Virus record (IMG/VR): IMGVR_UViG_3300009481_000030
Location: 1 to 41,600 of that record
Origin: a virus
Strand: one strand, 5' to 3'
DNA length: 41,600 nucleotides
This document shows, in pieces, positions 2,162 to 33,423 of this stretch. The notes below the pieces were generated by a model. The model was not told where the DNA came from. It was given only the letters and a program-made list of their open reading frames with translations, and did not search any database. The position numbers and the translations under genes are program-made. Numbering within the stretch: position 1 is the stretch's first letter; each line of letters starts with the position of its first letter.

Positions 2162-2171
2162 GGTGTATAAT
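2162..2171 (+). promoter_or_regulatory. Late-type promoter L1 (-10 only)
   Basis: GGTGTATAAT lies 35 bases before the first rightward gene. No TTGACA-like box lies 16-18 bases upstream. It is one of six similar sites, all in gaps ahead of rightward genes. The motif recalls T4-type late promoters, which have a -10 element only and are read by a gp55-type sigma factor. Confidence 0.6.
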
Positions 2172-2206
2172 AAGACGGGCTACTATTTTTTAAAAAAGGA
2201 GACGAC

Positions 2207-2389
2207 ATGTCTGATTGCTGCAACAACAAGAAAAAGCATGGAAATAAGGTAGATTCTCAATTGAATTGCAAAGCAACTGCTGAATTAGACAGTCAGATTG
2301 TTGATGATCTTATGGCCGAAGATGCATCCCTCAAAGATTTACTAGAAACAGACACCCAAGAAGAAAATGCGGACCAAGATGACAGCTAA
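2207..2389 (+). CDS. 60-aa acidic protein, unknown function
   Basis: First gene of the rightward region, with a strong AAAAAAGGAGACGAC leader before the ATG. The N-terminus MSDCCNNKKKHGNK is basic and has a double cysteine. The rest is strongly acidic and ends TQEENADQDDS. No fold or family is recognised. Its 3' end overlaps the next gene by 11 or 23 bases depending on that gene's start, suggesting coupled translation. It may be a small regulator or virion component; the sequence does not decide. Confidence 0.65.
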   Translation: MSDCCNNKKKHGNKVDSQLNCKATAELDSQIVDDLMAEDASLKDLLETDTQEENADQDDS

Positions 2390-3215
2390 ATTCAGTCATG
2401 CGGCAGTGGAACTAGGATGTGCCTACCACGGAAGGATCTTTGAGATAGAACTCCAAGGGACAGAAGCCCTAATGGAGCACAATGACTTCATAAGACGAGC
2501 CATTGAAAACAACGTATTCACCAAAGAAAGCCTGTTCAGCAAGGTATTCACCACTGACCACCAATTTTTCTACCTGTTAGAGAAGTACGAAAAAACCCCC
2601 GGCCCCGTAGAAGACCGCCTACTCCTATATGAGAGGGGTGTTGGCAGCATTGAAATTTCAGATGGTGTCACAGTTCTCAAGAGAGATATAGTTGTAGCTT
2701 GGGGGACTAGTCCCAATGAAATGTACCCCGCAGATTCACAACCCATACCATTTACTAATGAGGAAGAGAACAGCCTAACATATATTATAGTATCATCCGC
2801 ATTCCCTGCGACTTATTCCGAGGCCCTAGCCGCCCCCCACACACTGATATCGTCTCAACACGAACCGTTCCTACCGCATCCTGTAGAACTACAGGAAAAT
2901 TCTTTCTTAGGAAGGAAAGATGACGTTATTCAGGCCATTGATATGTCAGAATTCCCCACCATAGAGGGGATGCCTAATGCAATCGTAGAGTCGATCAGCA
3001 AATCACAGAGGCAAATCCAGCTAAAAGCAAGGAGATTAGATCTAACCCGCAAGAATTCTGTCGTTGGAGCACCAGTTGTTAGATTAACACCTGAGTTTTC
3101 TGATAAAGACAAACCACCAGCCCAGAAGGGTTGTATTATATATAACACGGACAAGGAATGCTTGCAGTTTTACAACGGAGAAAAATGGCTTACAGTTAGG
3201 GGGGTAGAAGAATGA
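2367..3215 (+). CDS. Putative virion protein with fibre-type C-terminal motif
   Basis: A 282-residue protein starting MRTKMTAKFSHAAVELG; the second methionine at 2379 is an equally possible start, as neither has a strong ribosome site. Most of the length is unrecognised. The last 25 residues contain IIYNTDKECLQFYNGEKW, which matches the 'IYNT...LQFYNG..W' motif common at the ends or repeats of phage fibre and adhesin-like virion proteins. It overlaps the sigma-factor gene by four bases. A structural or attachment role is inferred from this motif alone. Confidence 0.6.
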   Translation: MRTKMTAKFSHAAVELGCAYHGRIFEIELQGTEALMEHNDFIRRAIENNVFTKESLFSKVFTTDHQFFYLLEKYEKTPGPVEDRLLLYERGVGSIEISDGVTVLKRDIVVAWGTSPNEMYPADSQPIPFTNEEENSLTYIIVSSAFPATYSEALAAPHTLISSQHEPFLPHPVELQENSFLGRKDDVIQAIDMSEFPTIEGMPNAIVESISKSQRQIQLKARRLDLTRKNSVVGAPVVRLTPEFSDKDKPPAQKGCIIYNTDKECLQFYNGEKWLTVRGVEE

Positions 3216-3733
3216 AGATACCCCCAAGTATGACACACCAGCAGGTTGTAGATCAAATACAGGTCGTTGTTAATAGAATCGCCCCCAAGTACACATTCTA
3301 CGGATATGAGGCAGACGATCTCAAACAAGAAGCCTTTATAATCTGTATGGACGCACTCGATAGGTACGAAGACGGTAGACCACTAGAGAATTTCCTATCT
3401 GTACATCTATCCAATAGGCTGAAGAACTTTGTTAGGGATAATCACTACACCAAGGACGAAGAGGAGAAAGCCCGCGTAGTAATGCCCGGACAACTTGCCA
3501 ACGAAGAATATATAATAGGAGACGACTCACGACGCTTGGATGTAGATGATTTTTACTCTACAAAACTGGACTGGAAGGATATGACCCACATAATTGACAT
3601 AAAACTCCCAGCCCAACACAGAGCAGACTATTTAAAGATCGTACATGACGTATATGTTCCTAAAAAACGTAAGGAAGAAGTACTACAGGTCATATATGAC
3701 ATACTAGAGGAGCATGGCTATGCGGAAGGGTAG
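3212..3733 (+). CDS. gp55-like late sigma factor (region 2 only)
   Basis: A 173-residue protein. Residues 30-80 carry a pattern typical of sigma70 region 2: YGYEADDLKQEAFI, then ALDRYEDGRPLENFLS and NRLKNFVRDNHY, matching the 'DLxQEg...aldrfd...f...l...i...r' core-binding and -10 recognition segment. There is no region 4, so a -35 contact is not expected. Size and domain content resemble T4 gp55 (185 residues), which directs polymerase to -10-only late promoters. It lies in the first rightward unit, ahead of packaging and head genes whose gaps carry a TGTGTATAAT motif. A role in late transcription is a well-supported inference; a different DNA-binding role is less likely. Confidence 0.75.
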   Translation: MKIPPSMTHQQVVDQIQVVVNRIAPKYTFYGYEADDLKQEAFIICMDALDRYEDGRPLENFLSVHLSNRLKNFVRDNHYTKDEEEKARVVMPGQLANEEYIIGDDSRRLDVDDFYSTKLDWKDMTHIIDIKLPAQHRADYLKIVHDVYVPKKRKEEVLQVIYDILEEHGYAEG

Positions 3734-4505
3734 ACTTAGTAACGAAGAGGCCCGTTTCATCACACAAAACGCAGAAAGACTCAGCGTGGATGAAATAGCA
3801 ACTGAGTTGCAACGTGATCCAGAGAGTATTAATTCTTTCATAAAAAGGAAATTAAAGTTGGGCCTTTCCCGCGAAGAGGAAGCAGCCTACTCACTAGAGG
3901 ATAGACCATACTGGGCGGAGCTTAAGCAGCAGTTTACGGAGGATGAGCTAACATTGTTTAAGTACCATTGGGCGAGGATTATCTCCCAGTTTAAAGATGA
4001 CGTGTTTCCCACGGAGGAGTTGCAGGTGGTTGACGTGATTAAGCTTGAGCTTCTCATGAATCGCTGCTTAAAGGGCAACAAAGAGAACATTGACCAGATT
4101 AGTGCGTTTGAAGCAATGATACAGGAAGAGAGAGCCTGCGACCCCGACCAACAAGACAGGGACCGTATTTTGAACTTGGAGCGTCAGGTGTCCAGCCTGA
4201 GAGCCGCACAGGAGTCCTTGAATAGGGATTACCGCGACTTGCAGACCAAGAAGTCGTCCATGCTTAAGGAGATGAAGGGAACCAGAGAGCAGAGAATTAA
4301 GCGACTGGAAGACTCAAGGCAATCCTTTACGGCTTGGGTAATCCACCTCATGCAAAACCCGGAGGTCATACATAAGTACGGTGTTGAAATGGAGAAGATG
4401 AGACTATCCATGAACAAAGAAGAGGAAAGATTATCGCAGTTTCACAGGTACGAAGATGGGCAAATAGATCAGCCCTTCTTGACGCCTGACACTGTGCAGG
4501 ACTAG
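3720..4505 (+). CDS. Probable small terminase subunit (HTH plus coiled coil)
   Basis: The 261-residue protein starts MRKGRLSNEEARFI. An ATG six bases earlier is possible, but GGAG lies seven bases before this one. Residues 5-45 form a helix-turn-helix-like segment (LSVDEIATELQRDPESINSF). A long charged region at about 140-205 is predicted coiled coil (many E, R, K and L), followed by an acidic tail. A DNA-binding N-terminus, a coiled-coil centre and a position upstream of the large terminase fit a small terminase subunit, though four to five genes intervene. An alternative is a transcription regulator acting with the adjoining sigma factor. Confidence 0.55.
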   Translation: MRKGRLSNEEARFITQNAERLSVDEIATELQRDPESINSFIKRKLKLGLSREEEAAYSLEDRPYWAELKQQFTEDELTLFKYHWARIISQFKDDVFPTEELQVVDVIKLELLMNRCLKGNKENIDQISAFEAMIQEERACDPDQQDRDRILNLERQVSSLRAAQESLNRDYRDLQTKKSSMLKEMKGTREQRIKRLEDSRQSFTAWVIHLMQNPEVIHKYGVEMEKMRLSMNKEEERLSQFHRYEDGQIDQPFLTPDTVQD

Positions 4506-4529
4506 TACCTAACTCAGGAGAGGAATTAG

Positions 4530-5543
4530 ATGAAGAAGGCTATTATTTTTGGCGTTACGGGACAAGACGGAAGCCATTTGGCAGATCTACTTTTGTCAAA
4601 GGATTATGAGGTGGTGGGCGTTGTGAGAAGGAGCAGCGTAGACACTACTGGAAGAATTAAGCATCTAACAGAAAATGACAATTTCAAACTGGTGCATGGA
4701 GACATCACAGATGCGAGTAGCGTAATCAGTATCTTGAGAGATAACGAGAATGTAGATGAAGTCTACAATTTAGCAGCGCAATCGCATGTGGGAATCTCTT
4801 TTAAGCAACCCGGATTAACTTGGGATATTACTGGAAAGGGATGTTTCAATATCTTACAGGCTATTGTAGATTTGGATATGTTGGGATGCAGATTCTACCA
4901 AGCATCTTCAAGCGAGATGTTTGGTGATTCATACGATGTCGATAAGGATGGAAACAAATACCAAAACGAGGATACGAAATTTCTACCTCAGTCACCATAT
5001 GCTATAGCCAAATGTGCAGCACATTACGCTGTCCGGTTATTCAGGGAAGCATACGGACTCCACGCGAGTGCAGGAATACTATTTAATCACGAGGGACCAA
5101 GGAGGGGCGAAAACTTCGTAACCCGTAAAATTACCAAATGGATAGGCGACTTTGTTAAAAGCGGAAAAGATAAAAATTTTCCAAAGCTCCGTTTGGGTAA
5201 TCTAGAGGCGTTCCGAGATTGGGGATACGCCGGAGATTACGTTGAGGGAATGTGGATGATGCTTCAGCGGGATGAGCCTGACGACTACGTTATATGCACA
5301 GGCGAGACACATACGATTAAAGAGTTTTTGGATTGTGCCTTCGGACATATAGGGATAGACGACTGGGCTGAGTTTGTAGTAATAGACCCTGAGTTTTACA
5401 GACCAGCCGAAGTTGACTATCTAAGGGGAGACTCCTCACTGGCTAACAGAAATCTAAACTGGTTTCCTAAGCATAGCTTTGAGGATCTTGTTCACCTGAT
5501 GATGGAGCACGATCTAGATGAAAATATACAAAGTATACCTTGA
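4530..5543 (+). CDS. gmd: GDP-mannose 4,6-dehydratase
   Basis: Converts GDP-D-mannose to GDP-4-keto-6-deoxy-D-mannose, the precursor of GDP-fucose, GDP-rhamnose and perosamine. The 337-residue length fits the family. The NAD(P)-binding motif GVTGQDG is at residues 8-14, the catalytic segment ASSSEMFG carries S127 (usually Thr) and E129, and YAIAK gives Y157 and K161. The segment ILFNHEGPRRGENFVTRKIT is a Gmd hallmark. GGAGAGG precedes the start. It sits between the putative small terminase and nuclease genes, and no partner sugar enzyme is visible in the window. The likely use is modification of host surface sugars, virion glycosylation or supply of a nucleotide sugar; the sequence does not decide. 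Confidence 0.93.
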   Translation: MKKAIIFGVTGQDGSHLADLLLSKDYEVVGVVRRSSVDTTGRIKHLTENDNFKLVHGDITDASSVISILRDNENVDEVYNLAAQSHVGISFKQPGLTWDITGKGCFNILQAIVDLDMLGCRFYQASSSEMFGDSYDVDKDGNKYQNEDTKFLPQSPYAIAKCAAHYAVRLFREAYGLHASAGILFNHEGPRRGENFVTRKITKWIGDFVKSGKDKNFPKLRLGNLEAFRDWGYAGDYVEGMWMMLQRDEPDDYVICTGETHTIKEFLDCAFGHIGIDDWAEFVVIDPEFYRPAEVDYLRGDSSLANRNLNWFPKHSFEDLVHLMMEHDLDENIQSIP

Positions 5544-5766
5544 CCTATCCTTAGTGATAACAGTCCTAATTAAATTCAAACTTCAAGAGTACAACTCACC
5601 GTTTCCGATAGTCTTTGTAGAGGCTGGCGATCCAGACGAAGCTTGCTTTCTTGCCACGTCTGGACTGATGAAAACTATTTTAAATCAGGACTCATCTATT
5701 GAAACGAGGATACTCTGTAGAGAAATACGCCACGATATCCGGGTTTTAAGAGCGGTATGTCAATGA
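5518..5766 (+). CDS. 82-aa protein, unknown function
   Basis: Overlaps the end of gmd by 26 bases and the start of the HNH gene by 10, so it is packed into a coupled gene string. It begins MKIYKVYLDLSLVITVLIKF. The N-terminal part is hydrophobic but probably folds as beta strands (KVYLDLSLVITVLIKFKLQE), followed by FVEAGDPDEACFLATSGLM and a basic C-terminus. The ribosome site (GGAG, 11 bases upstream) is weak, as expected for coupled translation. No family is recognised. Confidence 0.6.
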   Translation: MKIYKVYLDLSLVITVLIKFKLQEYNSPFPIVFVEAGDPDEACFLATSGLMKTILNQDSSIETRILCREIRHDIRVLRAVCQ

Positions 5767-6029
5767 GAAGGAATTACCAAGACCCCGTATATAAAGAGTG
5801 GAGAAGTAAGGTATACAGAAGAGATGGCAGGAGATGCCAGATGCCCGGATGCAAGTCCAAATATAAAATTCAGGCACACCATATAAAGAAATGGTCAAGA
5901 GCAGCCTCTTTAAGATACGACATTGATAACGGAATTACCCTTTGCAAAAGCTGTCATGACTCGATCAATGGAGCGGAGTCTCATTACGAGTCCCTGTTCT
6001 CTGAGATAGTGAGGAGTAAAAATGGTTAA
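5757..6029 (+). CDS. HNH endonuclease
   Basis: A 90-residue nuclease of the compact HNH type. Zinc-binding pairs are C27-x4-C32 and C63-x2-C66. The HNH core is H41-H42 (AHHIKKW), N58 (DNGI) and H67 (CKSCHD). Such proteins are frequently encoded next to phage terminases and can assist packaging-linked DNA cleavage; some are selfish homing nucleases. Its position in a string of overlapping genes leading to the large terminase favours the packaging role. The start could also be the ATG six bases downstream. Confidence 0.88.
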   Translation: MSMRRNYQDPVYKEWRSKVYRRDGRRCQMPGCKSKYKIQAHHIKKWSRAASLRYDIDNGITLCKSCHDSINGAESHYESLFSEIVRSKNG

Positions 6030-6525
6030 ACACAGCAAAGCACCAGATTTTTTTGTTATCAAAGATACTAGAGAGCAAGAAGGGTATTACTTTGGTAAAT
6101 ACAACACCTGTGCAGGCATGGTCGAGAGAAAACTTGACACTGGAGACTACAGCATTGAAGGTCTTGAGGATAAGATATGCGTGGAAAGAAAAGGGTGTGT
6201 GGAAGAACTGGCTCAGAATCTAGGACAGAAAAAACATGCATTTTTAAACGAGGTGGAGAGAATGAAACCCTTTCCACATAAGTTTATGGTTCTTGAGTTC
6301 TCTTTGGAAGATTTGATTAATTTCCCTGAGAATTCAAGGATACCAGAAAAGAAAAAAGCTTCTGTAAAGATAACAGGAAAATATTTACTTAAGTGTTTAT
6401 TGGAATTCCAGCTTCATGACGGCATCCACGTCCTCTTTTGCGGCAACAAGCATAACGCTTTTTTAGCTGTCAGCAGTATTTTCAAAAGAGTGAACGAGAT
6501 GTATACCACAGGGAGAAAAAAATGA
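6022..6525 (+). CDS. ERCC4 (XPF-type) nuclease domain protein
   Basis: A 167-residue protein with the XPF/ERCC4 nuclease signature: DTREQ at residues 15-19, LDTGDYSIEG around G41-D42 and VERKG with E55-R56-K57. In the family the ERK motif is usually followed by an aspartate three residues later; here that position is E61. The fold is a metal-dependent endonuclease acting on branched or structured DNA. It has no helicase or obvious HhH2 domain, so it is a minimal nuclease. GAGGAG precedes the start, and it overlaps the HNH gene by eight bases and the next gene by four. A plausible role is resolving branched phage DNA before packaging. Confidence 0.82.
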   Translation: MVKHSKAPDFFVIKDTREQEGYYFGKYNTCAGMVERKLDTGDYSIEGLEDKICVERKGCVEELAQNLGQKKHAFLNEVERMKPFPHKFMVLEFSLEDLINFPENSRIPEKKKASVKITGKYLLKCLLEFQLHDGIHVLFCGNKHNAFLAVSSIFKRVNEMYTTGRKK

Positions 6526-7169
6526 CAGACCCAACTGGGGAAGTTCATTCTTATGGGGTAGACATTGCTAATAGGGAAATATATCTACACGGACAGCATG
6601 GAGCATTTGAGGAAGATCCGGGTGTTGATTACCGGATGGCCTCTACGTTCATAAAAAATATAAGACATCTAGACGCCAAAACCCATAGTTCTATATTGAT
6701 TCATATGCACAGCATAGGGGGCAATTGGAATGACGGCATGGCTATTTATGATGCCATATCTATGTGTCGCTCATACGTGACCATTCTCGCTTATGGACAA
6801 GCCGAGTCTATGAGCAGTATAATTCTACAAGCTGCCGATGAGCGAATTATGACACCTAACTCGTATTTTATGTGCCACTTTGGGTCAAGCGGTATGGTGG
6901 GCGATTATCAAAGCGTCCAGAATGCGGTCAAGTTTGAGCAGTCCATGACAGACGCGATGCTTGAGATATATACCGAACAGTGCGTAAACGGAAAATTTTT
7001 CAAGGAGCACTATAAAACAGTAACCCCCGAAAAAGTCAAGGGCTTTATACGGAGAAAAATCTCCGCAGGGGATTGGTATCTAAACGCTCACGAGTCAGTC
7101 TACTACGGGTTTGCTGACGGAGTAGTAACAAGCAAGAAGTTTGGTAACGGACATATCACGAGAAGATGA
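6522..7169 (+). CDS. ClpP-like serine protease (S14 family)
   Basis: A 215-residue ClpP-fold protease. The pattern SIGGNWNDGMAIYDAI matches the ClpP oxyanion strand, GQAESMSSIIL gives nucleophile S96, FMCHFGSSG gives H119, and GDWYLNAHESVYYGFAD gives D184, so the S-H-D triad is intact. Phage ClpP-like proteins often act as head maturation proteases. Here, however, a separate prohead protease is fused to the scaffold at 11463, so this one may have another target. It overlaps the ERCC4 gene (ATGA) and the terminase gene by four bases each. Confidence 0.85.
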   Translation: MTDPTGEVHSYGVDIANREIYLHGQHGAFEEDPGVDYRMASTFIKNIRHLDAKTHSSILIHMHSIGGNWNDGMAIYDAISMCRSYVTILAYGQAESMSSIILQAADERIMTPNSYFMCHFGSSGMVGDYQSVQNAVKFEQSMTDAMLEIYTEQCVNGKFFKEHYKTVTPEKVKGFIRRKISAGDWYLNAHESVYYGFADGVVTSKKFGNGHITRR

Positions 7170-9148
7170 ACAAAGTAAAAAAAATAGATGAAGCTTGGCT
7201 AGGAATTGATATACCAGACAAGGACATATTCAATCCATCCCAAATGCTGAAAGCCTCGGAAGATGACTTCCACCTAAAGCTTACTTGGTTGATGACACAG
7301 CCAGAGTACTTTTCTTTTTTGTGTAAGGAAATCCTAAACATACACCTTCTTCCATCACAGGCTTGGATGCTTAAGGAGATGTGGGGTAGGAAATTCCCTA
7401 TGCTGATAGCAAGTCGTGGGTTTGGTAAGTCTTTCATACTTTCTTTATACGCTATACTCAGGGCGCTGCTACTACCTAGGAGAAAAGTAGTTGTCGTTGG
7501 TGCTGCCTTTCGCCAGTCCAAAGTTCTGTTTGAATATATGGAGACAATATGGCGAGACGCTCCCATGCTTAGAGACATATGTGATAATAACAGTGGGCCG
7601 AGAAGAGATGTTGACAGATGCGTCATGCGGATTAACGAAAGCACCGTTACATGTCTACCTCTTGGCGATGGGCAGAAAATCAGAGGCCAGCGAGCCAATG
7701 ATATTATTTCTGATGAATTTGCTTCCATCCCCAGAGATATTTTCGAGAATGTCGTCGCTGGTTTTGCCGCAGTAAGCGCCGACCCCGTTGAAAATGTTAA
7801 GAGGCTTGCGGCAGAAAAGAGAGCTGCCGAATTGGGGGTCTCTACTCCACAGGCTGAGTCCGAAGAGGTCGAGGGTAAGGATAACCAGATTATATTATCG
7901 GGTACTGCGTACTACGACTTTAACCATTTCGCTACCTACTGGAAAAAGTGGAAGTCTATTATTAAAAGTCGGGGATCGAGGGCTAGACTTAGAGAAGTTT
8001 TTGGTGGCGAAGACGCCCCAGAGAATTTCGACTGGACACAATACTCCATAATTAGAATACCCTATGAGCTTCTGCCAGAAGGATTTATGGATGCTGACCA
8101 AGTTGCAAGATCCAAGGCCACAGTTCACACCGGTATATACCAGATGGAGTTTGGGGCGTGCTTTACCAGAGACTCTCAAGGGTTCTTTAAAAGATCTCTA
8201 ATAGAGTCCTGCGTAGTGTCTAAAGAAAACACAATCAAAGACAGCTTGGGCGGTGAAATAGATTTTGAAGCTACGCTAATTGGTGACCCGAACAAGAAAT
8301 ATATTTTTGGTGTTGACCCCGCTTCGGAGGTTGACAACTTTAGTATAGTGGTACTTGAAGCCAATCCAGATCACCGCAGGATAGTCCATTGCTGGACAAC
8401 AACCAGATCAGAACACAAAGAAAAGGTCAAGAAAGGCCTATCCAGAGAAACAGATTTCTACGCCTATTGCGCCAGAAAAATCAGAGATCTCATGAAGCTA
8501 TTTCCCTGTATCCATATAGCGATGGACGCTCAGGGTGGAGGTATAGCTGTTATGGAATCCTTACATGATAACGACAAGATACAAGAGGGAGAGTTGGCGA
8601 TTTGGCCAGTTATAGATGACGACAAACCAAAAGATACAGACGATGAGAGGGGTCTTCACATATTAGAAATGTGTCAGTTTGCTAAATATGAGTGGTTGGC
8701 GGAGTCAAATCATGGCATGAGAAAAGATTTTGAGGATAAGGTTCTCATATTTCCATTCTTTGACGCTATCACACTCGGGTTATCCACATCAGATGATGCG
8801 ATAAAGGGAAGGATGTTTGACACTCTCGAAGAGTGTGTTATGGATATTGAGGAGCTGAAGGACGAACTGTCCATGATTCAGATAACACAGACAGCAAACG
8901 GCAGAGATAGATGGGACACCCCAGAGGTTATTGTCGGAGCTGGCAAGAAAAGCAAGATGAGAAAAGACCGTTATTCAGCACTGCTCATGGCCAATATGGC
9001 GGCAAGGGTATTACAGAGAACACCAGCCCCACAAGAGTATAGATTCTACGGCGGGTTTGCTACCGATGGGGGCTTTAGACAAAAAAGTAACGAAGAGCCT
9101 TACTCTGGTCCTAGCTGGTTTACGGACAACATGAAGGATATTTATTAA
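7166..9148 (+). CDS. terL: Terminase large subunit
   Basis: The DNA packaging motor and end-cleaving nuclease, 660 residues. The ATPase Walker A motif is SRGFGKS at residues 83-89. Walker B with the catalytic glutamate is DIISDEF, with D183 and E184. The C-terminal RNase H-like nuclease begins at YIFGVDPASE with D384, and a further acidic residue D454 lies in HIAMDAQGGG. The length is typical of T4-gp17-like large terminases. Translation is coupled to the upstream protease gene by ATGA. It ends the first rightward unit; a late-type promoter follows at once. Confidence 0.95.
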   Translation: MNKVKKIDEAWLGIDIPDKDIFNPSQMLKASEDDFHLKLTWLMTQPEYFSFLCKEILNIHLLPSQAWMLKEMWGRKFPMLIASRGFGKSFILSLYAILRALLLPRRKVVVVGAAFRQSKVLFEYMETIWRDAPMLRDICDNNSGPRRDVDRCVMRINESTVTCLPLGDGQKIRGQRANDIISDEFASIPRDIFENVVAGFAAVSADPVENVKRLAAEKRAAELGVSTPQAESEEVEGKDNQIILSGTAYYDFNHFATYWKKWKSIIKSRGSRARLREVFGGEDAPENFDWTQYSIIRIPYELLPEGFMDADQVARSKATVHTGIYQMEFGACFTRDSQGFFKRSLIESCVVSKENTIKDSLGGEIDFEATLIGDPNKKYIFGVDPASEVDNFSIVVLEANPDHRRIVHCWTTTRSEHKEKVKKGLSRETDFYAYCARKIRDLMKLFPCIHIAMDAQGGGIAVMESLHDNDKIQEGELAIWPVIDDDKPKDTDDERGLHILEMCQFAKYEWLAESNHGMRKDFEDKVLIFPFFDAITLGLSTSDDAIKGRMFDTLEECVMDIEELKDELSMIQITQTANGRDRWDTPEVIVGAGKKSKMRKDRYSALLMANMAARVLQRTPAPQEYRFYGGFATDGGFRQKSNEEPYSGPSWFTDNMKDIY

Positions 9149-9150
9149 CT

Positions 9151-9160
9151 TGTGTATAAT
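9151..9160 (+). promoter_or_regulatory. Late-type promoter L2 (-10 only)
   Basis: TGTGTATAAT followed by CCTATAGAAA, in the 64-base gap before the portal gene. No TTGACA box is present upstream. The downstream CTATAG element also follows site L4, so it may mark the transcription start region. Confidence 0.68.
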
Positions 9161-9212
9161 CCTATAGAAACAATCCAATTACATTCCAACTCAATTGATT
9201 GAAAGATAAAAA

Positions 9213-11423: not shown

Positions 11424-11430
11424 AAAAAAT

Positions 11431-11440
11431 TGTGTATATT
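11431..11440 (+). promoter_or_regulatory. Late-type promoter L3 (-10 only)
   Basis: TGTGTATATT in the 39-base gap before the protease/scaffold gene, preceded by an A-run and not by a TTGACA box. It is the shortest gap that carries the motif. Confidence 0.6.
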
Positions 11441-11462
11441 CTCTTAGGAGAGGTAAGACACC

Positions 11463-14490: not shown

Positions 14491-14517
14491 TCCCTAGCTC
14501 CAACTACACCCGCCTTG

Positions 14518-14553
14518 GAGCCACCTCCATTTACTTGGGGGTGGCTCTTTTTT
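14518..14553 (+). terminator. Rho-independent terminator after the capsid gene
   Basis: An 11-bp stem, GAGCCACCTCC (14518-14528) with GGGGGTGGCTC (14537-14547, one G-T wobble), an eight-base loop and six T. It closes the portal-to-capsid unit. The next late-type promoter begins one base after the T run. Confidence 0.92.
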
Positions 14554-14554
14554 A

Positions 14555-14564
14555 TGTGTATATA
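14555..14564 (+). promoter_or_regulatory. Late-type promoter L4 (-10 only)
   Basis: TGTGTATATA followed by ACTATAGAAC, directly after the terminator. It restarts transcription for the fibre region. The CTATAG sequence downstream matches that at site L2. Confidence 0.65.
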
Positions 14565-14607
14565 ACTATAGAACGTGTTCTTTTAGGATTACATATAGGA
14601 GACAATA

Positions 14608-21754: not shown

Positions 21755-21796
21755 TAACCACCCTTAAGACATAACCACCGCTAACTTAAAACAAAG

Positions 21797-21808
21797 TGTG
21801 TATAAATA
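21797..21808 (+). promoter_or_regulatory. Late-type promoter L5 (contains TATAAATA)
   Basis: TGTGTATAAATA in the 95-base gap before the gene at 21850. It contains TATAAATA, the exact T4 late -10 element, and has no TTGACA box upstream. Confidence 0.7.
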
Positions 21809-21849
21809 ACTGAGACCTGTTTACATAAAGACGATTAAGGAGAGAATAA

Positions 21850-22751: not shown

Positions 22752-22761
22752 GGTATAAGAA

Positions 22762-23280: not shown

Positions 23281-23295
23281 CAAGGAGACTATTCG

Positions 23296-24240: not shown

Positions 24241-24259
24241 TCTCACAAGGGATAAATAA

Positions 24260-27200
24260 ATGAGTCACATAGTTGTACTTTCAGATAGAGTTAAAGAACT
24301 CAGCTATACTACCGGTACAGGCCCAATGGCGCTCAACGGTGCGGCAACTGGGTTTAGCTCCTTTGGCTCTTATTATGACCATAATGCTCCCCTCTTTTAC
24401 GCAATCACGGATGGGACAAATTATGAGGTAGGTTCTGGCCTTTACCAAAGCGCCGCTTACGACGCTGGTGATGGTATTACAGAAAACCAACTTGTCAGAT
24501 TTCCAATGCGAAGCAGCAATTCGCACAGTAAGGTAGACTGGTCTGACGGCACGAAAGAAATCTATGTTACCTATCCCGCAACCCATTCCGTGTACACCGG
24601 GTCAGGTCTAGGGACATTCCCAGCACCCCAAGCTAGCGGTCTTGCTTTTTGGGAAACTTCTAATTTACTCAACTACGATAATAATATCGTGTGGGATTCT
24701 ACCAACAAGAGGGTTGGTATTGGAACCGGAACCCCTCAGTATTCAATGGATATTGGCGGTCATGGGGCTTCTTCAGCAGTTCAAGCTTCTGGTTTTATCG
24801 TTGGCACATCAGGTATATTCTTTCCTAGCGGAACAAGCATTCCCGGATATAGTGGTGGCCGTCAGATTGAACACTTTATAAGAAACGAGCTAGACCAGAG
24901 TGCTCTTGACGCAGGCCTGATCGGTGGCTCAACAGGGTCATCTGCTGTCCTTGAACTGAGCGGCATTGTAAACCAGTATATATTCCTTAAGCAGCAAAGT
25001 AAGGGTCTGGTTCTTGCTGGACCAGCGAGTGGTTGTGAAGGCTCTTGCTCTCCCGCCTATCCCTCTTTCCGATTCTTAACCCTAGAAGATATCCCAAGTC
25101 TGGCAAGTCTTTACGTAACACCCCACGACACCGCAGCAAAGGGTGGAGTGGCTATATGGCATGAAGATAAGATTATTGGCTATGACCCATCGTTCATTTG
25201 GGATAGCGGGTTCAACAAACTAGGTGTTAACGTTCCACTCCCGACTTACACCCTTGATGTTGGTGGAGAAGGGCGAGTCCGAGGTGCTTTGCAGGTAGAT
25301 ACCGGATTAAACGTTGGTGAGAACACCGTCATGAGCGGCAACCTTCAGGTCAGAGGTAATCTTGACGTTGTTGGTACAACTACTTATATAGATAGTGAAA
25401 CTGTCACGGTTTTAGATAAAAACTTAGAACTTGGCTCTTTAAGTGGTGATGCTCGCTGGACAGACGCTCAGATTGATGGGGGCGGTCTGATTCTCAAGAC
25501 AACAGACTCAACCGGTGACAAGCTATGGATCTGGAAAGACGCAACAGACGCTTGGACTACTAGCGGTAATATAGACGTTAGCGGAATTACTGGTCTCACG
25601 GCTGGTAGTGGCTTGAGCCTCACATATAATTCAAATGGTCAATTACTCAACCTCAATGTAACAGATGTTTTCAGAATCAATTCAAATGACAGTACCGAGA
25701 GGGAAGTAACGCAAGACGACAAGATTGTATTCAAGGGTGTTAGCGGGATCGCAACATCTACTGATATTTCAGCGTCCAATCCTAATACGTTGAATGTATT
25801 CTTTGATCCCACTGAGCTGTCTGGCATACTTAACAGCGCGGCTTCCACCGCCGCAGACGACCTAACTACCGCCAACTTTACGGCTGCAACATTAGTTACA
25901 GAGCCAGAGGGTCTAAACTCTAGCGACAACGACACCAGCATACCGACGACAGCAGCAGTTAAAGACTATGCAGACCTAGTATCTGGCCTTTTACCGTTAG
26001 CCGGAAGTGGTCTCATTCTAACTACAGACAATAGGCTCCATTTTGCGGACCCCAACAGCCTGACAAGCATGCTTGACGGCGACATTGTTTCCAATGACCA
26101 ACTGCTCATCTTTGATGACGATCCGGGTGTTTGGAAGTCTGTCACCATTGAAGAACTTCAAGATGAGATTCAGGCTGGTAACATAGTCGCAGCGGGTAGT
26201 GGTCTTATTATTGACGGCGACAAGAAGGTACACCTCTCTGACCCGGCTAACTTGACCAGCATGCTGGATGGAGATATTATTGCTAGTGACCAATTACTCA
26301 TCTTTGATAATGATCCCGGCGTTTGGAAGTCTGTCACTATTGAAGAACTGCAAGACGAAATTCAGGATGGGAATGTAATCACTGCTGGGAGCGGCTTGAT
26401 TCTTGACAGTGAAAAGCAAATGCACCTCTCTGATCCAGCCAACTTGACCAGTATGGCCGATGAAGATATTGTCTCTAGTGATCAACTTCTCGTTTTTGAT
26501 GACGATCCGGGTGTCTGGAAGTCTGTTACCATCGAAGAACTTCAAGACGAGATGCAGGGCGGGAATATAATCACTGCTGGAAGTGGCTTGGTTCTTGACG
26601 GTGAAAAACAAATGCACCTCGACGATCCAGCAAACCTCACTAGTATGCTTGACGGAGACATTGTTGCCTCTGATCAGATGCTGATCTTTGACGATGATTC
26701 TGGAAAGTGGAAGACGGTTACAATAGAAGAGCTTCAGGATGAGATCGACCCCGGCGACGGTGGCGGAGGTTGGTTTAAATACGTAGACATCGACGATGCC
26801 GACTCCGGTAGCTGGGGAACTTCCAATATCGAGGCAGAGACTGACGCCACCCTCAAGCTAGTTGCCGGTTCTGGTATTGAGCTTGGAAGTAGAGACTCAA
26901 CAGAAAACGCAATCAGAATATATAATACTGGTATGCCGTATGTGTCTGGTATGCTGGTACATGCATCCGGCGCTCTCGATTCCAGAATTACAACCGTAAC
27001 AGATGCTAACACACTGCTCATCAATGCCTCTGGAGCCGCCATTTCTGGATGGGCAAACAACCGCTATGACACTAACGCCACTACGTTCCACGCTTCTGGC
27101 CATGCAATCTCTGGTTGGGCTGGTAGTCTCGTTGACGGCATAGTTTCGTATCATGCTTCCGGGCATGCAATCTCTGGTTGGGCAAACAACCGCTATGACA

Positions 27201-30200
27201 CAAATAGAGCCTTGATTAACGCATCTGGAGCGGCCATATCTGGCTGGGCTAACAATCGTTATGATACTAACGCTACTACGTTCCATGCTTCTGGCCACGC
27301 AATCTCTGGTTGGGCTGGAACCCAATTCAGAACAGCCGGAAGCGGTTTAGCCCTTCATGGCGTTAGCATGGTTCTTCAAGACCCAGATACAGATTATGAT
27401 GCTGTCACAGCAGGCACTACGGTGGGTGCAGACCAAGTTCTAGTATGGGATGATAGCGATTCACGTTGGAAGCACATGTCTCTAACCGAGATGAACGCTG
27501 AAATGCTTGATAGTGCACACATAGACGATGAAGAGGTTGATGTATCAACTGATTACGTTCTCTTCTTAGATGGTGGCGTGAACGGGGCTATTAAGAAGGA
27601 AAGCTGGGCTGATTTTGCAGCCAAAATAGCTGGGACAAACATAGGTTCGTCAAATGGTCAATTGACCGGTGGCGCAGGCGGAGCTGGTGGTGAGACTAAC
27701 CAAAACGCTTGGTCTTATGTCAAGATTAATGGGGGGGCAGACACAACCAACGGACCAACAATCGACGCTAGCGAGAAGACAGATACCGTTGATTTTAGTG
27801 GTGTTAAAGGTGTTGAAATCACCTCTGTAACATCTTCCGATTCCGTTGTGTTCTCAGCAGCACCTGCTTCTGGCTGGACTAATTACCTAGTTGCCCACTC
27901 TGGCGCTGCCATTTCTGGGTGGGCTGGTGATCAGGTTGCAGCAAACACGGCCTTGATTAACGCATCCGGGGCAGCAATCTCCGGCTGGGCTGGCGATGAG
28001 ATTACAGCAAACACGGCCTTGATTAACGCATCCGGGGCAGCAATCTCCGGCTGGGCCAGTGATCGTATTGATGTCAACACAGGGTTGATCAACGATAACA
28101 CTAGCTTAGTTAACAATTTGGACTTCTTCAAGATAGTCAAGGTTACTGACACAGATGGTGGCGGCTGGGGAACTTCTGATATAAACGCAGATACGGCTGA
28201 TGAGACGCTTAGCATTGTTGGCGGCAGTGGTATTGAGTTGGGTACAATTGATGGTACAGATAACAAGCTTCGCATTTACAACACCGGTATGCCTTACGTG
28301 TCTGGTATGCTTGTTCACGCTTCCGGCTCACTGCGTGACGCAATTACAGCAAACACAGCCCTTGTAAATGCATCTGGAGCTTCGATTTCTGGGTGGGCTG
28401 GTGATCAGATTACAGCAAACACGGCGTTGATTAATGCGTCTGGAGCATCCGTCTCAGGATACGCCGCAAGCTTTGGCATATTCAAGACGGTTGAGGTTGA
28501 CAACACAGATACAGAATACACTTGGGATGACACCACATCCGTTGCTGACGCTGTAACTGATACTCTTAAGCTAGTTTCTGGTTCGGGTATAGAACTGTCA
28601 GCAGATGCAGAGCTTGATTCCATAAGAATATACAACACGGGCATGCCATTTGTCTCAGGAATGTTGGTCCACGCCTCTGGGGCATTGAACGACAAGATAG
28701 ATGGAACGTCTAATATCACTGCCGATTCTGGCGTTATTCGGGTTGGTAATGAAATCAGGCTTGAACCCAATACATTAGTTCATTTGGATGGGTTTGATGT
28801 TGGTCTTGCCGATCAGGACTTTAAATTTCTTTCTATTGGCACAGACGATGAGAAATGCTGGGGTGCCAATAATGGCTCTCAAAATATATACCGGATGCTG
28901 ATTGGCTATAAAGCTGGCAGATGGGATAAAGGGAGCGATGGCGTCCAGACTGGGAATTCGCATGCCAATATGATAGGAGCTTTTGCGGGGTACGATTCAG
29001 ATGGCTGTAATGATACCAATGCGTTGGGTCGTTCAGCGGGATCTGATGCCCGGATGCTTCCTTATAGTAACATAATAGGCTACTATGCTGGTTTTCATGC
29101 CACAGGCTGTAGTACGTCTAACATGATAGGCCGCGAAGCTGGTCGTCAGGCAACTGGTTGTGACTACACTACTATGATTGGTTTGCAGGCTGGGATGCAT
29201 TCAAAAGATTCTGAAAGTGGCATCATGATTGGGAATGGGGCTGGGTTTAAAGCGTTAATGACGTTGGATACCATTATGTTAGGCCGAAGCGCAGCAAGCG
29301 GCGTTAACTCATGCGTGTCCAGTGTCGCCATTGGTTATCAAGCCGGGGCGGAGGCAGTAAGTTGCAAGCATGACAGCATGATTGGTTCTCAAGCTGGGTA
29401 TGAGGCGACCAACGGCCTAAGCAACAACATAATGGGCTACCAAGCGGGGTATCAAGGAAGTTGGAATCAATACACCAACATGATTGGAGCCACTGCTGGT
29501 TACGGGTCGTACAACAACGAGTACGCCGACCTAATGGGCTATGGCGTTGGTAGGGAGTCAACACGTCTCGATTTCACATCCGCCATTGGTTATCACGCCA
29601 TGTATAGGGCAGAAGATGTCGAGTCCACAGTCGCCATTGGTTATTACGCCGGTGCGCACTCAAAAGATGCACTTAAGTCTGTATTTCATGGTCGGCATGC
29701 GGGGTATGGGACCAGCGGGGTTATCAACGCGATTGCTATTGGTCCATCCGCCATGTATAAGAGTGATCACCGCATTATGGCAAAAGATGAAAATGGTACA
29801 GCCACTGAGTTTGACTCCGACAACAGAGTCAACTCATACGCCATATCATTAGGTCAGCAAAGTTTTCAAAAGTCCCAGAGGGTTGTAAATAGTATTGCCA
29901 TTGGTCGCAGAACCCTTGAGATGTCGAGACCATTCATAACCAACTGGGCCGATGACGATCATATCATAAAGGACATGTACGGTAACGTCCTTGATTACAC
30001 GAACTTTGCCGCTTTTGGAACTAAGAACGATGTTGCTATTGGCTACCAAGCGATGTCCCAGTCAAGGTTTACAGAGTCTAATATAGCTATTGGCGAGCAC
30101 TCCATGTCGAATGTGGGGCAGGTTAATATGAGGGGCGGCAAGTCGCGTACCTACCTCGGCAGGGAAAGCTGGCAGACAGAGCCGACAGCTCAAGAGTATA

Positions 30201-30967
30201 AGAGCGCTGGAGCAAAACACAACATTGCGATAGGCACATGGGCAGGGTACATTGGTGGTGATTTCTCAGATCGTGTCGGCGTCTACAAAAATCAGTACAA
30301 TACATTTATTGGATACAGGGCCGGTGAGGCAGGTAATTGGAAGCCCCATCAAAACTGCGGAATCATATTAGCTGGATCAGACGGTGATAATGTTATCGAA
30401 TCTGCCGGTGTGAATAAATTCAATCTATTCAACACCATTTCCGGGGATCATGCTCACACTGGAGCGAGTGCTTGCTCTGTCAGGATTGGCGATGTCACGG
30501 TTGTATCTACCCCCGGCGCCACACTACACATAAAACCAAAATTAACAACCCAATTCCCCTTAAAGGTTGACACCACGTCTACCGAGGGTAGGCCCCTAAT
30601 TATAACCGTAAACAAACACAATATCAACCTAAACAAGGGTGGTGCGCACTTCAACGGGAGTTCATACATCCAGCGTATTGATGGTCTTAGCTCCAACAAT
30701 ACCTCGGCACAATCTGTGTATGCGAGACCGGAAAACCCAATTGTTAACTCCCGTGGATGGCTATGTGTTCCATGTTTCGACGCAAGGAACCAGTCCGGCT
30801 CCAAAAAGGGAGCTATACTACCAAAAGCGTCTGAGAACAATGGTATGGTGGCCTTCTTGTGGGCTGACAACAACAACATGTTTCACGTGTACGCAATGGG
30901 TAATTACTGGTGGAGATCTATCGACCCGTTCCATAAAAACCACGGTTTCGGAAACTGGCATAACTAA
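24260..30967 (+). CDS. Giant fibre protein 4 (2235 aa), DRVKE-type anchor
   Basis: The largest complete protein. The N-terminal domain (LSDRVKELSYTTGTGPMALN, later KEIYVTYPATHS) is the same fibre anchor as in the protein at 20642. A 64-residue unit (DQLLIFDDDPGVWKSVTIEE) repeats four times at about residues 600-830. Then comes a repeat (RIYNTGMPYVSGMLVHASG) seen three times, mixed with 22-residue INASGAAISGWA units. From about residue 1540 to 2050 there are YadA-like repeats (NMIGAFAGY, SVAIGYQAGA, SAIGYHAM). The last 35 residues (FLWADNNNMFHVYAMGNYWW) may be the receptor-binding tip. AAGGGA precedes the start. Confidence 0.82.
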   Translation: MSHIVVLSDRVKELSYTTGTGPMALNGAATGFSSFGSYYDHNAPLFYAITDGTNYEVGSGLYQSAAYDAGDGITENQLVRFPMRSSNSHSKVDWSDGTKEIYVTYPATHSVYTGSGLGTFPAPQASGLAFWETSNLLNYDNNIVWDSTNKRVGIGTGTPQYSMDIGGHGASSAVQASGFIVGTSGIFFPSGTSIPGYSGGRQIEHFIRNELDQSALDAGLIGGSTGSSAVLELSGIVNQYIFLKQQSKGLVLAGPASGCEGSCSPAYPSFRFLTLEDIPSLASLYVTPHDTAAKGGVAIWHEDKIIGYDPSFIWDSGFNKLGVNVPLPTYTLDVGGEGRVRGALQVDTGLNVGENTVMSGNLQVRGNLDVVGTTTYIDSETVTVLDKNLELGSLSGDARWTDAQIDGGGLILKTTDSTGDKLWIWKDATDAWTTSGNIDVSGITGLTAGSGLSLTYNSNGQLLNLNVTDVFRINSNDSTEREVTQDDKIVFKGVSGIATSTDISASNPNTLNVFFDPTELSGILNSAASTAADDLTTANFTAATLVTEPEGLNSSDNDTSIPTTAAVKDYADLVSGLLPLAGSGLILTTDNRLHFADPNSLTSMLDGDIVSNDQLLIFDDDPGVWKSVTIEELQDEIQAGNIVAAGSGLIIDGDKKVHLSDPANLTSMLDGDIIASDQLLIFDNDPGVWKSVTIEELQDEIQDGNVITAGSGLILDSEKQMHLSDPANLTSMADEDIVSSDQLLVFDDDPGVWKSVTIEELQDEMQGGNIITAGSGLVLDGEKQMHLDDPANLTSMLDGDIVASDQMLIFDDDSGKWKTVTIEELQDEIDPGDGGGGWFKYVDIDDADSGSWGTSNIEAETDATLKLVAGSGIELGSRDSTENAIRIYNTGMPYVSGMLVHASGALDSRITTVTDANTLLINASGAAISGWANNRYDTNATTFHASGHAISGWAGSLVDGIVSYHASGHAISGWANNRYDTNRALINASGAAISGWANNRYDTNATTFHASGHAISGWAGTQFRTAGSGLALHGVSMVLQDPDTDYDAVTAGTTVGADQVLVWDDSDSRWKHMSLTEMNAEMLDSAHIDDEEVDVSTDYVLFLDGGVNGAIKKESWADFAAKIAGTNIGSSNGQLTGGAGGAGGETNQNAWSYVKINGGADTTNGPTIDASEKTDTVDFSGVKGVEITSVTSSDSVVFSAAPASGWTNYLVAHSGAAISGWAGDQVAANTALINASGAAISGWAGDEITANTALINASGAAISGWASDRIDVNTGLINDNTSLVNNLDFFKIVKVTDTDGGGWGTSDINADTADETLSIVGGSGIELGTIDGTDNKLRIYNTGMPYVSGMLVHASGSLRDAITANTALVNASGASISGWAGDQITANTALINASGASVSGYAASFGIFKTVEVDNTDTEYTWDDTTSVADAVTDTLKLVSGSGIELSADAELDSIRIYNTGMPFVSGMLVHASGALNDKIDGTSNITADSGVIRVGNEIRLEPNTLVHLDGFDVGLADQDFKFLSIGTDDEKCWGANNGSQNIYRMLIGYKAGRWDKGSDGVQTGNSHANMIGAFAGYDSDGCNDTNALGRSAGSDARMLPYSNIIGYYAGFHATGCSTSNMIGREAGRQATGCDYTTMIGLQAGMHSKDSESGIMIGNGAGFKALMTLDTIMLGRSAASGVNSCVSSVAIGYQAGAEAVSCKHDSMIGSQAGYEATNGLSNNIMGYQAGYQGSWNQYTNMIGATAGYGSYNNEYADLMGYGVGRESTRLDFTSAIGYHAMYRAEDVESTVAIGYYAGAHSKDALKSVFHGRHAGYGTSGVINAIAIGPSAMYKSDHRIMAKDENGTATEFDSDNRVNSYAISLGQQSFQKSQRVVNSIAIGRRTLEMSRPFITNWADDDHIIKDMYGNVLDYTNFAAFGTKNDVAIGYQAMSQSRFTESNIAIGEHSMSNVGQVNMRGGKSRTYLGRESWQTEPTAQEYKSAGAKHNIAIGTWAGYIGGDFSDRVGVYKNQYNTFIGYRAGEAGNWKPHQNCGIILAGSDGDNVIESAGVNKFNLFNTISGDHAHTGASACSVRIGDVTVVSTPGATLHIKPKLTTQFPLKVDTTSTEGRPLIITVNKHNINLNKGGAHFNGSSYIQRIDGLSSNNTSAQSVYARPENPIVNSRGWLCVPCFDARNQSGSKKGAILPKASENNGMVAFLWADNNNMFHVYAMGNYWWRSIDPFHKNHGFGNWHN
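26060..26748 (+). repeat. Four-copy 192-bp tandem repeat inside fibre 4
   Basis: Copies begin at 26060, 26252, 26444 and 26636, exactly 192 bases (64 codons) apart; the fourth is cut short after EELQDEI. Each encodes LTSMxDxDI followed by QLLxFDDDPGVWKSVTIEELQ (with variants). Copies differ at many synonymous sites, so they are not recent duplicates. Confidence 0.9.
27939..28056 (+). repeat. Exact 52-base direct repeat, 66-base period, in fibre 4
   Basis: The 52 bases at 27939-27990 recur without change at 28005-28056. They encode one 22-residue unit of the shaft (NTALINASGAAISGW). Exact identity, unlike the diverged units around it, points to a recent unit gain or a gene-conversion event. 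Confidence 0.85.
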
Positions 30968-31017
30968 TAATCCTAAAGGACAGTAATATTTAACACCAAC
31001 TATTTGGAGAAAATAAC

Positions 31018-31275
31018 ATGGCTGATGTAGCAATTAATGTAAGCGGAACAACAGAAAGGAACGGCTCGGTGGTTGTTGGTGCTCCTAGAGGAGCAGGCAC
31101 CGGCGCTCTTGGTTCCAAGTATACGTTGTTGCCCGGAGATTCAACAGACATGGTAAACAAGGGTGCGTTCTACGGTCACAATGATGCGTTAGAGCCGACT
31201 GTCCTTGATACCAAGTATGATGGCCGGTTCGACGACGTTAGATACTATTCTGGTGATAGACCTGCTGACGCATAA
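31018..31275 (+). CDS. 85-aa virion-region protein, unknown
   Basis: Starts MADVAINVSGTTERNGSVVV after TTTGGAGAAAATAAC. It is glycine/alanine-rich and has no helix-forming core (GAPRGAGTGALGSKYTLLPG), suggesting a small, partly disordered virion protein. It follows the second giant fibre and precedes neck-type genes. No promoter motif was found in its 50-base upstream gap. Function unknown. Confidence 0.6.
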   Translation: MADVAINVSGTTERNGSVVVGAPRGAGTGALGSKYTLLPGDSTDMVNKGAFYGHNDALEPTVLDTKYDGRFDDVRYYSGDRPADA

Positions 31276-31285
31276 GGAATAAACC

Positions 31286-31774
31286 ATGCCCATTAGTGTC
31301 CCGCAAAGTGTTTTTGATAAATACTACGATGTCATCGACTCGACTTTTGATATCTTTGGCGTTACGTGCCAATTAGTTTCGATAGAAAAGGTTGAGGAGA
31401 TCATATATTCGCCAGACAATAACATCCCTGATAGGAACTCTATCAACGCTCATAGAAACAGGGGAGGTGGCGGCTACGACAGGGGAACAAAGACTATAAA
31501 AGAAGTAGAGTCATTTACGGATATAAAGCTCAAAGTCTATTGGGACGCAAAGGACTGGGTTGGTGTCGCTGGAAACATTAAAGCTCAAGATAACACAATA
31601 CAGACTATAGGATTAATGAAAGACTTACCAAAGATACTAAAAGCAAAAGAACTTATAGTACACAAGGGCATAAAAGACTACGGAGAGATGAGGTTCCAGA
31701 GAAACGGGGCGCACATTCCAATAGGGTTAAAACAAGATAGATATTTTTCCTGCTTATGGCAGAGGACCACATAA
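31286..31774 (+). CDS. Probable neck / head-completion protein
   Basis: A 162-residue protein beginning MPISVPQSVFDKYYDVIDST with AAGGAA upstream. The pattern 'FDIFGVTCQLVSIEKVEEII...NIPDRNSINAHRNRGGGGYD' and the beta-rich second half (DIKLKVYWDAKDWVG) are compatible with a head-closure or stopper protein placed under the portal adaptor. It overlaps the next gene by a single base (TAATG). Assignment is by position and weak pattern only. Confidence 0.5.
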   Translation: MPISVPQSVFDKYYDVIDSTFDIFGVTCQLVSIEKVEEIIYSPDNNIPDRNSINAHRNRGGGGYDRGTKTIKEVESFTDIKLKVYWDAKDWVGVAGNIKAQDNTIQTIGLMKDLPKILKAKELIVHKGIKDYGEMRFQRNGAHIPIGLKQDRYFSCLWQRTT

Positions 31775-32415
31775 TGACGATTAGTATCGAGCTGGTTGAG
31801 TCTCTGGCTTCTTTCACTAAAAAGGTTAATGCCGGAATTGCAAGCCACTTAAACAAAAGACTTAGATCAAAACATAGCTATATAACTTCGAGAGTCAGGG
31901 GTTATGTCCAGATGTGGATTAGGGCACAGCCAGAACTGCTGGATCTAGCCACAAATTACGGGACAGCAGGTTCTCTCGCTAGTCAGCTTGGGTTTACTTA
32001 TGGAAGTAGTAGGGGGGTTGCGGATTTGGTGGCCGTGGCGGTTGCCGCATCCGTTGAAGTTCACGTCCAAAAATTTGATTCAAACTTAAACGGAGGAGTT
32101 TTTGTAAAGATACAACCAAGAGATTTTGCAAACCTTGTTGGGGTTGGTGGGGCATCTATACCAATAGCGGGAGGTTCACTGCCTTGGCTGGAATGGCTTT
32201 TGCAAGAGGGGCACACAACGCTTATTGTGGGGTACGAGTACAACCCACAAACTGGTCTTGGTAGATCAAAAGCTGGAAATATGAAAGCTGGAGGGTCTTG
32301 GAGAGTCCCACCGCAGTATGCGGGCACGGTAGATTCAAACTTTATCACCAGAGCACTTGTTGGCCCCGCTCAAGCAAAAGACATAACTAGAATATTCAAA
32401 GCTATTTTTAGGTAA
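31774..32415 (+). CDS. Probable tail completion / minor tail protein
   Basis: A 213-residue protein. The start at 31774 (MTISIELVESLASF) is chosen because it forms a TAATG junction with the previous stop and has AGAGGA eight bases upstream; an ATG 18 bases earlier is possible. The N-terminal half is helical and basic (KRLRSKHSYITSRVRGYVQM). The middle has beta segments, followed by IPIAGGSLPWLEWLLQEGHT and a glycine-rich GRSKAGNMKAGGSWRVPP. The 'SLPWLEWLLxG' pattern occurs in phage neck/tail-completion proteins. Exact role uncertain. Confidence 0.52.
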   Translation: MTISIELVESLASFTKKVNAGIASHLNKRLRSKHSYITSRVRGYVQMWIRAQPELLDLATNYGTAGSLASQLGFTYGSSRGVADLVAVAVAASVEVHVQKFDSNLNGGVFVKIQPRDFANLVGVGGASIPIAGGSLPWLEWLLQEGHTTLIVGYEYNPQTGLGRSKAGNMKAGGSWRVPPQYAGTVDSNFITRALVGPAQAKDITRIFKAIFR

Positions 32416-32421
32416 TTTACA

Positions 32422-33408
32422 ATGTCTACAGAACAACATTTCAACCTAAAAGGCATAGATGATATCTTTGACACAACTCTAAGCAATGAGTTGCAAGATA
32501 ATATTGTTGAGTTTTTAGATTGGGCGTTGTTACAAAAGGGAAATTATTACAATGTTACAGTTGGTGAGCTATCGCCCCAAGGCTATGACTATAGCAAACT
32601 AAGGCCTTCATCAAATGAAAACTATGCTTCTGGAGTAGCTTGGGAAGGCTCTAGGAAAAACTGGGTGTGGCAAAGCGGGGTAGCTTCTTCGCCGTCGCCT
32701 TTAGTTGGAGACAATAATACGATTCCGGGGATATCAGGCGTCTATGTAGACGATACGTTTTACGCATCTAATACCGTTGGGACGTATGCCCACAACGTGG
32801 ACTATTTTAACGGCAGGGTGGTTTTTGATTCAGCGATCCCCACGACAAGTAAAGTGCAGGTAGAGCATAGCTACAAGTGGATTAATGTTGTGTATGCTAA
32901 CAACTTGCCATGGATTAGAGAGATACAATATAGAACTTATGACCAGAATGGGGAATTCCTACAGACTGGAAAGGGACGATGGGAACAACCGGCTGAAATG
33001 AGGGTTCAACTACCCGCAATAGCAGTTGAGGTTGTACCAAGGAGAGGAATGAGGGGTTACCAATTAGGTGGTGGGCAGTACATAAATACTGACGTTTTAT
33101 TTCACTGCTTGGCGGAGGATGAGCTTACTAGAAATAAGCTAGTGGATATTGTCTCGTTGCAGAACGAGAAAAAAATCTTTATGTTTGACAGCAATTCTAT
33201 AGCCTCAAGCGGAGATTTCCCCCTAGATTATAGAGGTTTTCCAACATCCGGGGCTTTAAGATACCCGGACTTGGTAAATAAACACTATAAGGATGGTGGA
33301 AGCCTCAGATTGGCTAATGCATCAATACAGGGTATGGATGTTATAAATAGCAATTTTTCCGCAGGTATAGTCAAGTTGACAACTGAGGTAATTAGACCAA
33401 AGATTTGA
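32422..33408 (+). CDS. Virion protein, probable neck or tail terminator
   Basis: A 328-residue protein between the completion-type gene and the tail tube gene. The start MSTEQHFNLKGIDDIFDTTL has only a weak AGG upstream. It contains several beta-rich stretches (GVYVDDTFYASNTVGTYAHN; STSKVQVEHSYKWIN type) and MRVQLPAIAVEVVPRRGMRG. The C-terminal pattern FHCLAEDELTRNKLVDIVSL resembles the core of tail-terminator-like proteins that cap the tube. A head-tail joining or tail terminator function is an inference from order. Confidence 0.5.
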   Translation: MSTEQHFNLKGIDDIFDTTLSNELQDNIVEFLDWALLQKGNYYNVTVGELSPQGYDYSKLRPSSNENYASGVAWEGSRKNWVWQSGVASSPSPLVGDNNTIPGISGVYVDDTFYASNTVGTYAHNVDYFNGRVVFDSAIPTTSKVQVEHSYKWINVVYANNLPWIREIQYRTYDQNGEFLQTGKGRWEQPAEMRVQLPAIAVEVVPRRGMRGYQLGGGQYINTDVLFHCLAEDELTRNKLVDIVSLQNEKKIFMFDSNSIASSGDFPLDYRGFPTSGALRYPDLVNKHYKDGGSLRLANASIQGMDVINSNFSAGIVKLTTEVIRPKI

Positions 33409-33413
33409 GTTTT

Positions 33414-33423
33414 AGTGTATAAT
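33414..33423 (+). promoter_or_regulatory. Late-type promoter L6 (-10 only)
   Basis: AGTGTATAAT followed by AAAATAGAG in the 54-base gap before the tail tube gene. No TTGACA box lies upstream. A dedicated promoter fits the high copy number needed of a tube protein. Confidence 0.62.

Follow-up and report, generated by a model that had tools for sequence, protein, structure and literature searches.

The window, the whole stretch of DNA analysed here (41,600 bases long, from IMG/VR), has a leftward arm at its left end followed by a rightward arm. On the minus strand at the left end lie five early-type sigma-70 promoters directed leftward, TTGACA-16-TATAAT at 1810–1837, 458–485 and 269–296 and TTGACA-17-TATAAT at 1635–1663 and 596–624; all five match the two hexamers at 12 of 12 positions with spacings of 16 or 17, as a reading of the sequence without database searches (below, the sequence-only reading) had described. 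In the gap between the two arms (~2030–2100) a block, GGGGTGGTTcaaACACAAT...ATGTATTACCCAATCYYCC, is conserved in about ten relatives and is a candidate cos, pac or origin. The plus strand of the rightward arm carries the gene of a small sigma factor of 173 aa (3212–3733) that has a sigma-70 region 2, a disordered linker and a small C-terminal helical domain; the gene of a 263 aa protein with an HTH and a long coiled coil (3714–4505), which overlaps the sigma gene end; and, after the major capsid gene, an intrinsic terminator with a 13-pair stem (14517–14554).

The window is a member of a large uncultured bacterial virus family. A search of the viral contig collection (IMG/VR) gave at least 598 relatives of its terminase, from which 80 loci were kept, and 20 contigs of terminase relatives were read entire or nearly entire; most of the relatives, like the window itself, are fragments. 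Since the phage records searched yield only distant matches to this terminase family, gene control in the family has gone unstudied. One relative, VFHP01000009.1 (L122), encodes a terminase 79% identical to that of the window and is binned in a SAR202 MAG, which makes it a candidate host link, and the 136 kb relative G002 has planctomycete-type PSCyt2/PSD1 and DUF1501 genes at its contig end (L086:964-4567) that are either phage-carried cellular genes or a contig artefact. Because these two indications disagree, we claim no host.

Six promoter-like sites precede rightward genes on the plus strand of the window, and all of them lie in intergenic gaps at the positions given by the sequence-only reading. 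The site that heads the sigma operon (2156–2179) has GGTGTATAAT at 2162–2171 and no clear TAGA element; the one before gene 9213 (9145–9168) has TGTGTATAAT at 9151–9160 and TAGA at 9165–9168; the one before gene 11463 (11425–11448) has TGTGTATATT at 11431–11440 and TAGG at 11445–11448; the one before head gene 14608 (14549–14572) has TGTGTATATA at 14555–14564 and TAGA at 14569–14572; the one before gene 21850 (21791–21814) has TGTGTATAAA at 21797–21806, which contains TATAAATA; and the one before gene 33463 (33408–33431) has AGTGTATAAT at 33414–33423 and TAGA at 33428–33431. The distances to the next start codon are 35, 52, 22, 43, 43 and 39 nt, respectively, within the 22 to 52 originally noted, and none of the six has a TTGACA box at a usable spacing. 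A TTGACA before the 33414 site lies 36 nt from the TATAAT and was rejected as a -35 box. Of the six, only the 9151 site matches TGTGTATAAT exactly; a single base differs in those at 2162, 11431, 21797 and 33414, and two bases differ in that at 14555.

Plain mismatch counting is too weak to establish such sites, as the TGTGTATAAT pattern with at most one mismatch matches both strands of the window 8 times against 3.3 expected, a modest excess, and we rejected it as proof. The comparison with relatives is far stronger and decides the matter. A 14-nt position weight matrix (PWM) was rebuilt from 33 sites of relatives with the window sites excluded, although those sites had been chosen with a first model that had seen the window; under it the six sites are the top six of the plus strand, with scores from 11.9 (the 21797 site) to 20.0 and the next best at 4.9, and 0.26 such sites are expected per strand by chance in simulated windows. 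In a wholly window-free expectation-maximization (EM) model of bipartite form, five of the six rank first on the plus strand and the 21797 site ranks seventh, which makes it the weakest claim of the six. We regard the six window sites as confirmed to be real and conserved.

Motif discovery in the intergenic gaps had been suggested as a check, and a de novo run in the relatives' contigs, many of them fragments, gives ATTTTGTGTATAAT-N4-TAGA. An EM run on 161 rightward gaps from 14 contigs, the window included, found ATTTTGTGTATAAT with a score of 224 compared to 37 in shuffled gaps, ahead of the Shine-Dalgarno motif, and a site is present in only about one third of those gaps; a 24-nt run without the window returned as its best motif ttATTTTGTGTATAATttatTAGA, that is, TTTTGTGTATAAT-N4-TAGA. 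The conserved core is GTGTAT. Enrichment in gaps over coding sequence, which the sequence-only reading had required, is also found: pooled over 21 contigs and above a score of 9, there are 78 sites in plus-strand gaps (49.5 kb) and 64 plus-strand sites in 621 kb of coding sequence, so that the gaps are about 15 times denser, and 14 sites lie in minus-strand gaps; these counts are not independent, because some of the contigs are near duplicates.

The TAGA element was overlooked in the sequence-only reading, and it is placed where a transcript start is expected. When sites were selected on their -10 part only, 51 of 62 distinct sites had a T at downstream offset 5, and TAG begins at this offset in 23 of the 62 compared to 0–5 at other offsets; in the window, where the gaps are unrelated to one another, TAG is found there at four sites out of six. 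With the last base of the motif at -7, TAGA spans -2 to +2, and so a G or an A is predicted at +1, 7 bases past the motif. This predicted position agrees with the range of 6–8 bases given beforehand for transcript starts. No position in the -35 region of the 62 distinct sites shows conservation above about 0.3 bit.

The placement of these sites is also conserved. Orthologs of gene 9213 are preceded by a site in 20 of 20 relatives, as are those of gene 11463 (also 20 of 20). The count is 0 of 20 for the terminase gene, gene 12983 and the capsid gene; the terminase and capsid genes lie inside operons. The gap after the capsid gene carries a site in 18 of 20, mostly continuing from the terminator T tract, and in the window the T tract of the 14517–14554 terminator forms the T-rich upstream part of the 14555 promoter. 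Since the terminator abuts the next late-type promoter (14517–14572 in the window, and in most relatives), capsid transcripts should end where a new unit begins. A GTGTAT-core site heads the sigma operon, ~780–1005 nt upstream of the sigma gene, in 14 of 15 relatives (the fifteenth contig is truncated). Two relatives extend as far as the 33414 site, and its counterparts there score 16.3 and 9.7. The leader of gene 9213 (9165–9205) has two direct repeats, AATYCAATTA, ~11 nt apart in nearly all relatives, a possible RNA or DNA operator.

The terminase stop codon provides a natural experiment, in which the promoter is placed immediately behind the stop codon of an essential gene or within it, and the core and start site are kept. 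Among the distinct relatives, 28 carry the motif after the stop, and their next-to-last codon is usually ATT, ATC or GTT. The other 38 have no motif after the stop, and their last codons are always GTG TAT, giving TGTGTAT within the gene, so that in about half of the family GTGTAT is found in the last two codons of the terminase rather than just after its stop. The Val codon at this end is GTG in 38 of 38, compared to 9% among other Val codons, and TAG stands at the same offset in 13 of 32 sites of the stop-codon class; relatedness inflates all of these terminase counts. The two arrangements are almost mutually exclusive, which is what a requirement for one promoter at this point would produce.

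The strand split of the window is repeated in its relatives, where, for example, TTGACA/TATAAT promoters in gaps number 14 versus 1 by strand in G005 and 5 versus 0 in G003. The early/late switch that the sequence-only reading suggested is partly supported, in that two promoter classes, separated by strand and by gene class, are confirmed in the window and its relatives. What the sequence shows is the motif with its start-site element, its conservation and placement, the strand split and the sigma gene; timing and the assignment of factors are inferred.

ORF 3212–3733 matches Sigma70_r2 at 6.2e-8. In its AlphaFold model (pLDDT 72.5) region 2 forms three helices and is followed by a disordered linker and then by three small helices, and a Foldseek search with this model returned sigma region-2 structures, none below an E value of 0.001. 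Region 4 was not detected in the 173 aa, and the small C-terminal domain could be a degenerate form of it. The sigma family is conserved in 26 relatives, and exactly one sigma-70 region-2 protein is encoded in each of the three records searched (the window and the 73 kb and 136 kb relatives). Because of this single sigma and the two-class split, an early/late switch by the phage sigma is the best reading.

We consider it highly probable that the rightward sites are single-element late promoters whose GTGTAT is read by the phage sigma with host core polymerase, and that host sigma-70 serves the leftward early genes. Host sigma-70 would first transcribe the small leftward genes from their TTGACA/TATAAT promoters. 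The phage sigma (3212–3733), on host core RNA polymerase, would then recognize GTGTAT at -15 to -10, within a -10 region that is T-rich and TATAAT-like, make no use of a -35 box, start transcription at TAGA ~7 bases downstream, and so switch on the genes for packaging, head and tail, which run rightward and would be late. As its own operon is headed by one such site, the sigma would also amplify itself. Elimination and co-occurrence are the only links between this sigma and these promoters. We found no clear sigma-70 promoter upstream of the sigma gene in the window that could start the loop. Throughout the relatives listed, the sigma operon head site (2162–2171 in the window) has either TATAAT or TATTAT, unlike the other sites, as if it were also read by host sigma-70; because it always keeps these hexamers, and is without TAGA in the window, a weak reading by host sigma-70 might possibly seed the first sigma.

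The conservation of that hexamer is one of two points in favor of a different explanation, that the sites are extended -10 promoters of host sigma-70 with timing set by an activator or by DNA replication and not by a phage sigma; the other is that many of the sites contain a perfect TATAAT, so some may indeed be read by the host factor. We nevertheless think this explanation improbable for the class. The TG is shifted by one base from its place in an extended -10 (G-15 T-14 and not T-15 G-14), and the last base of a -10 hexamer is normally among the most conserved for sigma-70, yet here T-7 is a T in only 41 of 62 sites whereas GTGTAT is kept (a core partly enforced by the score cut-off), and on these grounds we rejected assignment to the extended -10 class. 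The early promoters of the same genome, moreover, have perfect -35 and -10 hexamers.

A two-part late factor, in which the region-2-only sigma acts with the HTH/coiled-coil protein (3714–4505) replacing region 4 or serving as co-activator, seems comparably doubtful. The two genes overlap, and they are adjacent in most relatives. The HTH protein is conserved (~70% identity across relatives, better than the sigma), one member matches Sigma70_r4_2 at 0.0018, and all 25 members match a D5-like regulator family through the HTH. However, an HTH would find no -35 sequence to read in these promoters, and Foldseek matches of the protein are only weak, with the HK97 small terminase among them; a fold search gave no significant match to identify it as either region 4 or TerS. 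Since its gene lies in the packaging operon and the weak matches include that small terminase, TerS is at least as likely an identity, and we leave the protein undecided between a TerS-like protein and a transcription co-factor. We would give an equally small chance to a bolder combination, that an undescribed two-subunit late initiation factor, made up of the region-2-only sigma and the HTH/coiled-coil protein whose gene overlaps that of the sigma, reads GTGTAT plus the start-site element, and that selection for the promoter at the terminase stop dictates how the terminase protein ends in half of the family.

Promoters of ~23 bp for a phage RNA polymerase, single-subunit (T7-type) or multisubunit, are brought to mind by the length of the conserved block (about -20 to +2) and its fixed spacing to TAGA, but they are very unlikely, as neither a T7-type polymerase (in a search that had no positive control match) nor a multisubunit one (with a positive control that did match) was found in the window and the 73 kb, 136 kb and 41 kb relatives, while a sigma is present in every record searched for one. 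It is just as improbable that the sites are a conserved non-promoter element of the gaps, such as an RNA processing site or regulator operator, for although conservation by itself does not prove initiation and some leaders have further conserved repeats, the sites directly follow a terminator T tract, lie a short distance from gene starts, are -10-like in composition and have a start-site element at the canonical 7 nt together with a cognate sigma gene.

No description of a GTGTAT...TAGA promoter class was found in the literature searched. With a predicted start base, such a class makes the transcription units of all these contigs readable, and it is directly testable, since host core polymerase and a single protein of 173 aa suffice.

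Functionally, the system has three sequence features of single-element late promoters read by a region-4-less sigma: one conserved -10-region element upstream of the presumed late genes, no conserved -35, and a phage sigma with region 2 in which no region 4 was detected. In phiEco32 (Kuravirus), middle/late promoters consist of a single, highly conserved element, tAATGTAtA, without a -35 and with starts 6–8 bp downstream, and gp36, a sigma without region 4, is established with such single-element promoters; its late genes run rightward and its early genes leftward from promoters of sigma-70 type (PMC8948821). The window shares with it the single element, lack of a -35, downstream start, region-4-less sigma and strand layout. 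The cores, however, have only TGTATA in common, the window having GTGTAT(A), preceded by a T-rich part and followed by the start element TAGA; the window sigma has no detectable kinship with gp36 beyond region 2 (hhalign probability 0.4%, single sequence versus profile); its gene is in the rightward late cluster and not, as in phiEco32, in a leftward middle cluster; and gene contents are unrelated. In phage 7-11 the sigma gp47 controls late genes from fixed promoter positions (PMC8948821), and in both respects the proposed system of the window is similar, but the 7-11 promoter is bipartite, GTAAtg-(16)-aCTA, and its sigma has region 4.

T4 late promoters have a single -10-region element and no -35 conservation (PMC2988020), and T4 and the window are alike in this one element, in the AT-rich melting region and in a small region-4-less sigma (PMC2988020). 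The T4 late element TATAAATA that the sequence-only reading pointed out does lie inside one site (at 21801), but its frequency is at chance level (21801 and 33342, against 2.1 expected). The hint of a T4-like late system is not borne out, and we rejected membership in the T4 gp55 late family on consensus, sigma homology and the lack of a detected clamp gene: the core is GTGTAT and not TATAAATA; the window sigma cannot be recognized as a gp55 (hhalign gives a probability of 8% against the deposited sequence), with one of 26 sigma family members weakly matching the late-sigma PHROG; and searches for a clamp gene of gp45 or beta type in three records, which may be incomplete, detected none, the first of the searches having no positive control. 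The window system, judged by its sequence, appears to work like the phiEco32 gp36 or T4 gp55 promoters, but the sequence tests of membership place it in neither family.
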